This document shows positions 27,012 through 30,322 of a stretch of 64,000 nt of DNA, piece by piece. Source of the DNA: Allomuricauda sp. CAU 1633. GTDB taxonomy: Bacteria; Bacteroidota; Bacteroidia; Flavobacteriales; Flavobacteriaceae. Both the position numbers and the translations under genes were made by a program. The notes under the pieces were generated by a model. It worked only from the letters and a program-made list of their open reading frames with translations. It searched no databases and was not told the DNA's origin. Location of the stretch: the NCBI RefSeq assembly GCF_017313225.1, contig NZ_JAFLNE010000001.1, positions 496,001 through 560,000 on the forward strand, read 5' to 3'. Numbering within the stretch: position 1 is the first letter of the stretch; each line of letters begins with the position of its first letter.

Positions 27012-27130
27012 GAAAACGTTTATTGCAAAATAAGAATTATCGATCTGAACTTAACACGGTTTTAGGTGAATATGTTTGTTAAAACCCGTATTTTTACATG
27101 AATCAAGTAATAACACAAAAACACAAAATT

Positions 27131-27739
27131 ATGGCTTTTGAATTACCAAAATTACCGTATGCATACGATGCATTGGAACCACATATAGATGCTAGGACCA
27201 TGGAAATCCACCATACCAAACACCACAATGGCTATACTACCAAATTGAATGATGCCATTGCTGGAACTGATTTGGATGGCAAGGACATTGAGGATATCTT
27301 GTCCAATTTGGATATGTCCAATGGTGCTGTACGAAACAACGGAGGAGGCTTTTACAACCATTCTCTTTTTTGGGAAGTAATGTCTCCCAATGGTGGAGGA
27401 GCCCCAACTGGCATTTTGGCTGCGGCCATTGATTCAGCCTTTGGCTCTTTTGAAGGTTTCAAAGAAAAATTCACTGCTGCTGCTGGAACCAGATTTGGAT
27501 CAGGATGGGCTTGGTTGTGTGTACACGAAGGTGGGAAATTGGAAATCTGCTCCACTCCCAACCAAGACAACCCAATTATGCCGGGAGTAGAGTGTGACGG
27601 ACAGCCTATTTTAGGATTGGATGTTTGGGAGCATGCCTACTATTTGAACTACCAAAATAGAAGACCCGATTATATTTCAGCATTTTTTAATGTGATCAAT
27701 TGGGCTAAGGTTGCTGAGAATTACGAGGCAAGCAAATAG
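27131..27739 (+). CDS. sodA: Superoxide dismutase (Mn/Fe family, Mn-type residues)
   Basis: A 202-residue cytosolic dismutase. Metal ligands lie in EIHHTKHH (His27), FYNHSLFW, and DVWEHAYY (Asp and His). GGGFYNHS and STPNQDNP (active-site Gln on the C-terminal side) favour a Mn-type or cambialistic enzyme over strict Fe. The ATG before [16 protein letters not shown] is the family-typical start. TATGTTTG at 27071-27078 may be its -7 element. A terminator follows at 27764. Confidence 0.95.
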
Positions 27740-27812: not shown

Positions 27813-27883
27813 GAAAAGGGCGAGGAAGCCCCCGCCCTTTTCGTCCCAAATCTTACCATAAACTTAACCTACTTATGCTATGG
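27813..27883 (-). ncRNA. Putative small RNA, copy A of three
   Basis: Read on the minus strand: transcript start near 27883 with CCATAGCATAAGTAGG, then the conserved block to 27845 (a 5-bp CCATA/TATGG pairing is possible), then hairpin GAAAAGGGCG / CGCCCTTTTC (27813-27842) acting as terminator. About 71 nt. A promoter sits 5 nt upstream. The conserved block recurs in copies B and C. No ORF of note. Confidence 0.65.
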
Positions 27884-27888
27884 CGAGA

Positions 27889-27919
27889 CTAAAATACTGG
27901 TATTGTGTAAAATAACAAA
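27889..27919 (-). promoter_or_regulatory. Promoter of putative sRNA copy A
   Basis: CTTTG (27916-27920), a 19-nt spacer and TATTTTAG (27889-27896) on the minus strand; one mismatch to TAnnTTTG. Exactly 5 nt separate it from CCATAGC. Confidence 0.6.
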
Positions 27920-28006
27920 GGGTTTTAGATAAATTTTTGATTTTTCAATGAAAAAGAAAACGTGCAGTTCATCGATAAAATGGATAAATCGTTGGTAGTC
28001 AAATAT

Positions 28007-28076
28007 AAAGAAGGCGGAGTATTCTCCGCCTTCTTTCCCCAAATCTTACCATGAACTTAACCTACTTATGCTATGG
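28007..28076 (-). ncRNA. Putative small RNA, copy B of three
   Basis: Same architecture as copy A: conserved block from 28076 to 28037, then a perfect 13-bp hairpin (arms 28007-28019 and 28024-28036, loop 4 nt) whose stem AAAGAAGGCGGAG differs from those of A and C, followed by a T-rich end. About 70 nt. Confidence 0.68.
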
Positions 28077-28081
28077 TTCTC

Positions 28082-28112
28082 CAAATGTACGCCAAGGGAC
28101 CTTTTTCCCAAC
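28082..28112 (-). promoter_or_regulatory. Promoter of putative sRNA copy B
   Basis: GTTG (28109-28112), 19-nt spacer, TACATTTG (28082-28089): an exact -7 element. 5 nt before CCATAGC, as in the other copies. Confidence 0.7.
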
Positions 28113-28249
28113 AAGCTTTTAGATGAAACTCCCTTTATTTGGTTGAACTACCAAACCTACCGCTTACATGTACTATAAATGAAGAAAAGGATTACGGGAA
28201 GTGATAAAAGAGAGATAAAAGGAGATGATGTTATGGATGTGTAGAAAAT

Positions 28250-28320
28250 AAAAAAGGTGGAATAGCTTCCACCTTTTTTGCCCCAAATCTTACCATGAAC
28301 TTAACCTACTTATGCTATGG
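28250..28320 (-). ncRNA. Putative small RNA, copy C of three
   Basis: Conserved block from 28320 to 28281, then a perfect 13-bp hairpin (arms 28250-28262 and 28267-28279) with stem AAAAAAGGTGGAA and a U-rich end. It is nearest to purF; on the minus strand it lies about 100 nt after the purF stop, so it could also be made as part of the purF 3' UTR. Confidence 0.65.
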
Positions 28321-28325
28321 CAATG

Positions 28326-28360
28326 CTAAAGTAGGTTTGCTACTTGCCCATCTTACAAAA
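28326..28360 (-). promoter_or_regulatory. Weaker promoter of putative sRNA copy C
   Basis: TACTTTAG (28326-28333) with one mismatch; TTTTG (28356-28360) is 22 nt away, longer than optimal. The spacing of 5 nt to CCATAGC is kept. TTCATCGATAAA at 28379-28390 recurs at 27968-27979 upstream of copy A. Confidence 0.45.
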
Positions 28361-28423
28361 ACCCGTTCATCTACTCGTTTCATCGATAAAGTGCATGTAA
28401 ATAGGTTGTATGCAAATACAAGA

Positions 28424-30322
28424 TTAGTAGGCCCGTTGGTTTTTGCCCTCATAAAAGTTGATGAATGCCCTGTTCACAACCCTATTGCCGCCTGGGGTGG
28501 GATAATTTCCCGTGAAATACCAATCGCCCAAGTTTTTGGGGCAGGCTTCATGTAAGCTCTCAATACTTTGGTAAATGATGTCCACTTCGGCCTTTATGCC
28601 TTCTGGACTTAGAATTTCAGCTATTTTTTTGGAAATCTGCTGTGCGGTAAAAGGAGCATAAAATTCCTTAACGTAGTTTACCACATCCTTATCCTTGGTT
28701 TCTGTTTGGGTAAGACATTTTTCGTAGATTTCTTTTATCTTATCCGTTGTACCTGCTTCTTCGTGCAATGCTTTTGCTGCTTTAAAGGCCACAAAATCCT
28801 CTAGCTTGGCCATGTCAATCCCATAACAATCTGGATAGCGGATTTGCGGGGCTGAAGAAACCACAATGATTTTCTTTGGTGATAATCGGTCCAAAATTTT
28901 AAGGATACTCCTTTTAAGTGTAGTACCTCGTACAATACTATCATCTATTATAACCAAATTATCGTTTTGCTTTACGGAACCATACGAGATGTCATAAACG
29001 TGGGTCACCAAATCATCCCGACTGCTATCTTGGGTAATAAAGGTTCGCAGCTTGGCATCCTTGATGGCCACTTTTTCAATACGGGGGCGAACGTCCAATA
29101 TTTTATGGAGTTCTTCTCGGGTAATATTGGGCCCCAATTCTATGATTTGTTCTTCTTTTTTGTTGTTGAGGTAATTTTGGGCCTCTTTTACCATCCCAAA
29201 GAACGAGGTTTCAGCCGTATTGGGAATATAGGAAAAGACGGTATTTTCCAAATCGTCGTCAATGGACTTCAAGATTTGTGGGAACACCAACTTCCCCAAC
29301 ATCTTTCGCTCCTGATAAATTTCTTTATCACTCCCTCTTGAGAAATAGATACGCTCAAAAGAACAGGCTTTACGTTCTGTGGGTTCCTGGATTTCCTTTG
29401 CCGAAAAACCGCCGTCCTTTTTAATGATGACCGCATGCCCAGGATCCAATTCCTTGACATCGTCATATTTTACATTGAACACAGTCTGGATTGCAGGCCT
29501 TTCTGAAGCAACAACCGCAATTTCATCATCTTGATAATAGTAGGCAGGTCGTATTCCTGCTGGATCCCGAATGACAAAAGCATCACCATGGCCCAACAGA
29601 CCGCCAATGGTATAGCCCCCGTCCCAGTTTTTTGAAGCTTTTCTAAGGATTTTTGCCACATTCAATCGTTCCGCGATCAAAGGTGAGGCAGCCCTTTTAT
29701 TATACCCTTCCTTCTTAATTTGTTTGTAGAGTTTGGCTACGGCATCATCCAAAAAGTGCCCAATTTTTTCCATTACGGTAACGGTGTCCGCCAATTCTTT
29801 GGGATGCTGTCCCAATTCGACCAAATTGCCAAAGAGTTCATCAACATTGGTCATGTTGAAGTTTCCGGCAACGATAAGGTTACGGTGCATCCAGTTGTTC
29901 TGTCTTAGGAACGGGTGAACACTTTCAATACTGTTTTTTCCAAAAGTTCCATAGCGCACGTGCCCCATCAACAGTTCGCCGATGTAGGGAATATGGCGTT
30001 TTTGCATTTCTACATCATCTTCATATTCGGGATGCTCTGCCATTACCGAATTGATTCGGGCATTGATCTGATCAAAAATATCTTGGATGGGCTGCTGTTG
30101 TGCAGACCTTACCCGACTCATGTAGCGCTCACCAGGCTGCATGTCCAGTTTAATACTGGCAAAACCAGCTCCATCCTGTCCCCGGTTGTGCTGTTTCTCC
30201 ATCATTAGGTACATTTTGTTTACGCCGTAAAAGGCTGTACCGTACTTTTCTTTGTAATACTCCAGAGGTTTAAGCAAACGGATCAGTGATATTCCGCATT
30301 CGTGCTTAATCGCATCACTCAT
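28424..30322 (-). CDS. purF: Amidophosphoribosyltransferase (long Bacteroidota form)
   Basis: Catalyses the first step of purine synthesis, PRPP + glutamine to phosphoribosylamine. At 632 residues it is longer than the usual about 500. The N-terminal glutamine amidotransferase nucleophile is Cys9 in HECGISL, implying removal of an 8-residue leader; QHNRGQDGAGFAS and HVRYGTFG follow. The C-terminal PRPP loop is VIIDDSIVRGTTLKRS. An insertion lies around residues 60-120 (MSRVRSAQQQPIQDIFDQI). It belongs to the same-strand group purN - RNase H - PfkB kinase - purF. Confidence 0.9.
   Translation of the reverse strand: MSDAIKHECGISLIRLLKPLEYYKEKYGTAFYGVNKMYLMMEKQHNRGQDGAGFASIKLDMQPGERYMSRVRSAQQQPIQDIFDQINARINSVMAEHPEYEDDVEMQKRHIPYIGELLMGHVRYGTFGKNSIESVHPFLRQNNWMHRNLIVAGNFNMTNVDELFGNLVELGQHPKELADTVTVMEKIGHFLDDAVAKLYKQIKKEGYNKRAASPLIAERLNVAKILRKASKNWDGGYTIGGLLGHGDAFVIRDPAGIRPAYYYQDDEIAVVASERPAIQTVFNVKYDDVKELDPGHAVIIKKDGGFSAKEIQEPTERKACSFERIYFSRGSDKEIYQERKMLGKLVFPQILKSIDDDLENTVFSYIPNTAETSFFGMVKEAQNYLNNKKEEQIIELGPNITREELHKILDVRPRIEKVAIKDAKLRTFITQDSSRDDLVTHVYDISYGSVKQNDNLVIIDDSIVRGTTLKRSILKILDRLSPKKIIVVSSAPQIRYPDCYGIDMAKLEDFVAFKAAKALHEEAGTTDKIKEIYEKCLTQTETKDKDVVNYVKEFYAPFTAQQISKKIAEILSPEGIKAEVDIIYQSIESLHEACPKNLGDWYFTGNYPTPGGNRVVNRAFINFYEGKNQRAY

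Follow-up and report, generated by a model that had tools for sequence, protein, structure and literature searches.

A multicopy small RNA family of the Flavobacteriaceae with predicted pairing to the translation start regions of secreted and envelope protein mRNAs

In a 64-kb window of the Allomuricauda sp. CAU 1633 genome (the window being the whole stretch of DNA that was analyzed), three short units lie in tandem between sodA and purF, and we consider it highly probable that they are genes for one trans-acting antisense small RNA (sRNA) that pairs at translation starts and belongs to a new family. The case is built on gene anatomy, distribution across the family, synteny, and conserved complementarity, all of which can be read at the level of sequence. 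In the mechanism that we propose, each RNA of about 70 nt would have a Bacteroidota-type promoter of its own, with transcription stopping at an intrinsic terminator. Its 40-nt block would contain two pairing modules, at about positions 11 to 20 (AGUAGGUUAA) and about positions 27 to 40 (GGUAAGAUUUGGGG), which, aided by the 5' end, would pair with the short 5' untranslated region (UTR) and the start codon of messages that encode secreted or probable outer membrane proteins. By analogy with the FopS RNAs of Bacteroides, pairing would most likely block the initiation of translation, a direction of effect that we infer, and the tandem copies may provide dose as well as separate promoter control of the same RNA.

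Posttranscriptional control in Flavobacteriaceae is little known. What is gained here is a predicted sRNA that extends across the family, lies mostly at one fixed place in the genome, and has a block that hardly varies and no match in Rfam 15, together with three predicted targets supported by evolution, all among secreted and probable outer membrane proteins. The sRNA family and its targets appear to be new, while the kind of regulator, a multicopy antisense sRNA acting on envelope mRNAs, is already known.

RESULTS

Anatomy of the three units

Direct reading and repeat finding both confirmed the three minus-strand units with a near-identical 40-nt block that had been reported from the sequence, the latter as three 83-nt copies with start spacings of 193 and 244 nt (Table 1). 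The 23-mer heading the block, CCATAGCATAAGTAGGTTAAGTT, occurs three times in the window and in 0 of 100 dinucleotide shuffles of it. The end of a -7 box lies exactly 5 nt before the block in all three copies, as had been described, and the hairpins that follow have 13-nt arms (100, 100, and 92% complementary) and 4-nt loops. In the genus loci read (n = 30), the TTG-type -33 box is kept in copy A and not in copies B and C, copy B having GTTTCATCTAAAAGCTT conserved from about -53 in its place. The view of the invariant 5' part as single stranded needs a similar correction, since a weak 5' hairpin closed by CCAU/AUGG is predicted in all three copies, and this part would not be wholly single stranded; the CCAU/AUGG positions are nearly invariant, and covariation is mute for or against this hairpin. 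In the own genome (4.26 Mb, 20 contigs), the three window copies are the only good matches, and the next match (E = 9.4e-4) is the antisense of copy B.

Table 1. Features of the sRNA array and its neighbors, in window coordinates
Feature	Position	Strand	Remarks
sRNA copy A	27813..27883	-	block 27844-27883, terminator stem-loop 27842-27813
sRNA copy B	28007..28076	-	block 28037-28076, terminator stem-loop 28036-28007
sRNA copy C	28250..28320	-	block 28281-28320, terminator stem-loop 28279-28250
-7 box, copy A, TATTTTAG	27889..27896	-	TTG at 27916-27918, kept in the genus loci read
-7 box, copy B, TACATTTG	28082..28089	-	TTG at 28109-28111, unconserved in the genus loci read
-7 box, copy C, TACTTTAG	28326..28333	-	TTG at 28356-28358, unconserved in the genus loci read
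Operator-like TTCATCGATAAA, upstream of copy A	27968..27979	+	
Operator-like TTCATCGATAAA, upstream of copy C	28379..28390	+	also precedes the subtilase target gene
purF-like amidophosphoribosyltransferase, upstream neighbor	28424..30322	-	same strand as the sRNAs; TIGR01134 128.5 bits, below the cut-off of 350
sodA (Fe/Mn superoxide dismutase), convergent neighbor	27098..27739	+	

The hairpins covary well beyond the three copies in which covariation was first noticed. Among 21 sequences of the genus (types A and C), all hairpin cells pair and 8 of the 13 pairs are changed on both sides; none of 500 shuffles reaches the paired percentage or the covariation score, one has as many two-sided changes, and further pair types number 11, below the shuffle mean of 14.2. 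A larger set was drawn from 69 of the 80 named loci listed, with 11 loci of the same genus or with cut ends left out, and its 148 matches were aligned by fitting to the model's own structure. Among the 142 distinct sequences of this set, 99.5% of 1,815 terminator cells pair, and the covariation score is 0.628 versus 0.196 when shuffled (0/500), with a maximum of 0.141 when slid; the 11 of 13 pairs changed on both sides are equaled in 46 of 500 shuffles, so this count is not special alone. Covariation with pairing kept supports the proposal that the hairpin is a terminator free to drift in sequence. Together with a -7 box for each copy, it also favors the original prediction of separate sRNA genes of about 70 nt, and we regard the three units as supported candidates for such genes, each with a putative promoter and an intrinsic terminator.

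Range of the family and conservation of the block

Within the genus (Flagellimonas/Allomuricauda), all 71 genomes give a BLASTN match at E ≤ 1, with a value of 1e-26 or lower for 68 as read off the result table, and the weaker matches are those of G048 (4.8e-4), G056 (0.16), and G061 (3.9e-26). The first 39 block positions are identical in 34 aligned copies save position 24, which is C in types B and C and T in type A. A covariance model trained on 21 type A and type C copies found 215 of 249 sampled Flavobacteriaceae genomes at E ≤ 0.01 and 202 at E ≤ 1e-6; the 13 genomes between 1e-6 and 1e-2 were left uncounted because plain terminators also score there, and among the 202 is one doubtful genome, G298 (1.7e-7), whose match (L106) is unlike the block. 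A sample of 395 genomes from the phylum gave E ≤ 1e-6 in 34 of 41 family genomes and in 0 of the 354 sampled genomes outside Flavobacteriaceae, these counts being read off the table with unlisted genomes split by its kinship order. Ten genomes outside the family, at E values of 3e-6 to 6e-5, are not considered members, as plain terminators score alike. With 202 of 249 genomes inside and none of 354 outside at E ≤ 1e-6, the sRNA family would be Flavobacteriaceae-wide and is undetected outside with the present model.

The block itself changes very little over this range. Over 148 copies drawn from 56 loci, 28 of the first 30 positions have a commonest base that accounts for at least 97%, the exceptions being position 6 (G in 74%, the printed remainder A) and position 24 (C in 71%, mostly T otherwise), and the block continues with ATGGTAAG in 104 copies and with ATGGTAG in 42. 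These copies, defined by a block with at most five substitutions, come from loci fetched by the covariance model, the 30 best-scoring (L036 to L065) and 27 lower-scoring ones (L077 to L103), which make 57 with one lacking a copy; L104 to L106 were excluded. The core of the block is the same in distant genera, and L103 and L105 form a divergent fringe. A -7 box of the form TAnnTTnG is found upstream of the block at a distance of 5 nt in 125 of the 148 copies and of 6 to 7 nt in 14 more. Counted over 5 to 7 nt, the box is present in 139 of the 148 covariance-fetched copies and in 142 of 168 named-locus copies, and no box of this pattern was found in 8 and 25 copies, respectively. A block kept without its promoter, or at variable distance from it, which would have spoken against promoter-plus-terminator units, was thus largely not encountered. 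Many copies of other genera have a YATCTAAAA / TAACTAAAA box about 49 nt before the block, which by eye is sometimes repeated about 21 nt on. In one genome (G285, L057:2050-2422), three other tandem sRNA-like units, each composed of CCGATGCATCTCTCAGCTCCATGATACCATTTGGGG and a terminator, lie within the same array.

An ATG stands inside the block in the three window copies and in almost every copy read, so that a small peptide starting at the internal ATGGTA might be considered. We find this scarcely credible, as a one-base deletion in 42 of 148 and 52 of 168 copies shifts the frame after MV (MVRFG versus MVDLGQ), the open lengths scatter, with 216 of 316 copies having no stop within 20 codons, and the region past the block varies as paired hairpin bases do.

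Synteny was read in the named loci listed (80 of at least 118 stretches): purF is present in 68, sodA in 64, both in 56, and neither in 4. These loci were found by an exact 21-mer, which makes their block conservation partly a matter of selection. Among the 78 loci analyzed, 35 have one copy, 15 have two, 13 have three, 12 have four, 2 have five, and 1 has six, all being lower bounds owing to contig and stretch ends; more than one copy is found in 43 of the 78, with a median spacing of 208 nt. The copy nearest purF is most often 115 to 160 nt away from it in the named loci listed, a proximity that would suit premature-termination or attenuation elements of the purF transcript. Such a role is nonetheless very improbable, given that the copies come with a -7 box of their own at a nearly fixed distance, that sodA is convergent, that copy number runs from 1 to 6, and that conserved complements are found in distant genes.

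The original prediction had left room for a family already in Rfam. When the units were checked against Rfam 15 at curated thresholds, no family matched them, the window yielding tRNA only, and on five further family loci, only the separate Flavo-1 RNA reached threshold. At loose thresholds, the best score is that of STnc40 (RF02057), 33.7 bits against a gathering score of 45 and mostly from the terminator, and the best Bacteroidota family is FopS (RF04319), for which the gathering score is 56 bits and two copies score 20.6 and 17.6; membership fails for both families. The Flavo-1 match (RF01705, 83.4 bits) lies at L331:5116-5193, near the sRNA array in Flavobacterium swingsii. Viral contigs contain no exact match to the 23-mer, and literature searches, with most subscription journals outside their scope, found no paper describing this RNA.

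Predicted targets of the block

SusC mRNAs were considered as main targets, an idea that came from FopS, and were rejected, since 23 SusC-family starts pair no better than 269 background genes (P = 0.38). By eye, a TTAACTAAAC-like motif recurs roughly 20 nt ahead of the start codon in many SusC-family genes (L107 to L129). In the SusC comparison, one of the background genes emerged as an outlier; it encodes a 731-amino-acid (aa) subtilase, an S8 protease with a type IX sorting tail (own genome, G000:C1:245412-247604), and its 5' UTR reads GTCCAAATCTTACCTAAACTTACT-ATG. Its duplex with the block, at -33.2 kcal/mol, is below all 60 shuffle minima, with 2 of 60 shuffles having a more extreme z; this single-genome prediction alone is not decisive.

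A subtilase match is present in 59 of 60 genus genomes, and in only 13 of another 38 genomes that were searched and that belong almost entirely to other genera. Of 30 genus loci (own included), which keep the site after a TATATTCG-type box and before the start codon, 25 have CCAAATCTTACC exactly and 28 a close variant. The subtilase leaders of six other genera pair with the block at -23.0 to -32.1 kcal/mol, a mean that 0 of 200 shuffles reach; CCAAATC is found in five of the six (absent in L261), and pairing runs partly through different stretches of the block (L258: CCAAATCTTACTTAACCTAC). The site is absent from seven loci of six more distant genomes (40 to 44% identity), four of which have the one-base-shorter block, so that a compensating change at the missing base was not observed.

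Scans for complements in one genome alone were likewise not decisive. Own-genome complements of the seed with at most three mismatches number 48 + 51, sRNA genes included, versus 36 + 36 for the reversed pattern, and a gapped complement scan of 1.26 Mb found nothing beyond 20 shuffles save the sRNA genes, the subtilase site ranking about 43rd. Three of the top sites of the gapped scan are copies of a repeated element with TAAGATTTGGGG or a variant of it and were set aside as probable mobile-element ends. This element, TTGCCTCGCTCAGTAG...GGGGCTTGCAGCACT..CACTTCGTT, is found at L172:1994, L167:9256, and L219:17072 and has TAAGATTTGGGG in common with the sRNA block, in one copy as TAAGTTTTGGGG; beyond it, at two places, the DNA by eye resembles the start of a recombinase.

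A second screen, in which 957 start sites were compared with one relative (G035) and ranked by summed energy, placed a TraO-family gene fourth and a gene for a 913-aa protein fifth. The three genes ranked above them were set aside, as their leaders, 87 to 100% identical between the two genomes, consist in part of coding or hairpin sequence. The TraO-family gene encodes a 183-aa protein (Pfam PF10626) of a kind that we take to be outer membrane barrels. It keeps TCCAAATCTTAACC before the ATG in G035, where the preceding 25 nt are only 28% identical, and among its orthologues CCAAATC is found in 26 of 29 and CCAAATCTT in 24 of 29 (30 loci, one dropped as having no reading frame of the expected size; 44 of 70 genomes match). 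The 913-aa protein has a CarboxypepD regulatory-like domain, just under Pfam cut-offs, and is probably located at the outer membrane, and TAACCTAC precedes its ATG in 20 of 21 genomes, these being the own genome and 20 spread over the identity range of the 60 of 70 genomes with matches.

As the targets were first picked for low energy in G000 and G035, only divergent orthologues are independent. For orthologues below 80% identity of the subtilase (n = 26), the TraO-family gene (n = 25), and the 913-aa gene (n = 18), the mean duplex energies are -30.3, -33.5, and -29.9 kcal/mol, compared with dinucleotide-shuffle means of -18.2, -17.8, and -19.1. In none of the three sets does any of 200 shuffles come up to the real value, so that complementarity to three unlinked mRNAs is conserved. 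On the other side, 60 random starts likewise pair slightly better with the real block than with shuffled ones (z of -1.55, with 6 of 150 shuffles as low). Complements of 9 nt conserved between G000 and G035 were found at 63 genes versus 29.9 when shuffled (standard deviation 9.6, maximum 50; n = 40) and, when restricted to diverged flanks, at 11 genes versus 3.3 (maximum 9); both excesses are inflated by the ATG complement within the block. A PorP/SprF type IX secretion gene (L187:8263-9210) has TTAACCTAC in its 5' UTR, shifted but kept in G035, and is possibly a fourth, weaker target candidate. A conserved 5' UTR could also serve another purpose at the targets. The conserved start-region complements at three genes, and in six other genera for the subtilase, nevertheless favor the view, already taken in the original prediction, that the invariant part would be a target-pairing region.

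It might be argued instead that the block is a protein-binding or sponge RNA (CsrA-like, or for an RRM or Hfq-like protein) and that the mRNA sites are the motif of that protein or coincidence, given that the near-total invariance of the block exceeds the need of a 7- to 12-nt seed and that Bacteroides FopS RNAs are reported to be bound by RbpB (PMC11697453). We consider this quite unlikely, as the mRNA sites are reverse complements of the block and not copies of it, the modules differ by target (CCAAATCTTAC versus TTAACCTAC), and no shuffle equals the real pairing. Antisense pairing remains the reading that we prefer.

An operator-like motif shared with one target

The motif TTCATCGATAAA, which the original prediction proposed as a possible operator, is supported in that role for copies A and C when set against background. 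When at most one mismatch is allowed, the 150 nt upstream contain it in 22 of 24 genus copies of type C, 17 of 30 of type A, and 0 of 31 of type B. At a distance of up to 120 nt from the target site, it occurs at 22 of 29 subtilase loci (one of 30 was not found by pattern) and 0 of 25 TraO-family loci, and the background is 4 of 982 upstream regions of 120 nt. At the subtilase gene, it often lies within GTGCATTTCATCGA, and ATCGA recurs about 21 nt further along, a spacing that presumably resembles LytTR-type direct repeats. This enrichment at copies A and C and at the subtilase suggests that a common transcription factor probably acts on some of the sRNA copies and on one target. GTGCATTTCATCGA..ATCGA or parts of it were seen at copies A and C, at the subtilase, and at a few other places (L179:7674; L194:18010).

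DISCUSSION

Our results lead us to speculate further that the array is the core sRNA of a Flavobacteriaceae envelope and secretome regulon, in which the block would be invariant because different start regions use different parts of it, the operator would be shared with the sRNA's own target (a type IX secreted protease), and the RNA would descend from a common Bacteroidota ancestor with FopS. We put this forward tentatively, as it is, taken whole, unlikely.

Several known sRNAs share parts of this arrangement. OmrA and OmrB of enterobacteria are adjacent sRNAs with a shared conserved region and a diverging remainder, and they act at the start region on mRNAs of outer membrane proteins and a surface protease. 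The present RNA is like them in its adjacent copies, shared block, diverging rest, and predicted envelope targets at the start region; it differs in having more copies in some genomes and in belonging to another phylum, and no sequence relation is claimed. LhrC of Listeria consists of tandem sRNA copies that act on cell envelope mRNAs, as is predicted here, and it pairs by CU-rich loops with Shine-Dalgarno sites. No such arrangement of CU-rich loops and Shine-Dalgarno sites is seen in the present RNA, whose phylum, to our knowledge, does not rely on Shine-Dalgarno-based initiation. The Flavo-1 RNA (RF01705) is also a small RNA of Flavobacteriaceae, but it does not match the window units.

Closer to the present genus, deletion of the sRNA Rfp18 in Flavobacterium psychrophilum is reported to lower two metalloprotease mRNAs (PMC9723704). 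Both are conserved flavobacterial sRNAs connected with protease mRNAs, a connection that is predicted in our case; Rfp18 is described as pairing through a third stem-loop (PMC9723704), whereas the present RNA has two predicted hairpins.

The nearest parallel is the FopS/GibS family of Bacteroides (RF04319). FopS is reported to have 12 to 15 copies per genome in the species named, in mixed genomic context, to target SusC mRNAs, and to block translation in vitro by pairing at the susC start (PMC11697453). Both RNAs are about 65 to 70 nt long, with a conserved 5' part, a terminator, several copies, Bacteroidota promoters, and pairing at the start codon region, which is predicted for ours; in contrast to FopS, the present RNA forms one array at purF-sodA, has other predicted targets, and falls far below the Rfam threshold. 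The block and the 5' part of the FopS consensus (the R1' seed) have TTCATGGTA--AGATTT in common, a likeness that 63 of 20,000 shuffles reach with firm gap costs and 577 of 20,000 with soft ones and that, having arisen from a scan of 4,227 families, is suggestive only. That the RNA is a Flavobacteriaceae branch of FopS/GibS with the same seed would agree with this likeness and with the shared design. We judge it unlikely all the same, in view of the two scores far below 56 bits, the count with softer gap costs, the lack of SusC enrichment, and the lack of any match at E ≤ 1e-6 in the 354 genomes outside Flavobacteriaceae. Our best reading is that this RNA would work like OmrA and OmrB or like FopS; identity with FopS fails by Rfam score, and the parallel with FopS raises the question of a shared origin for the start-codon sRNAs of Bacteroides and Flavobacteriaceae.
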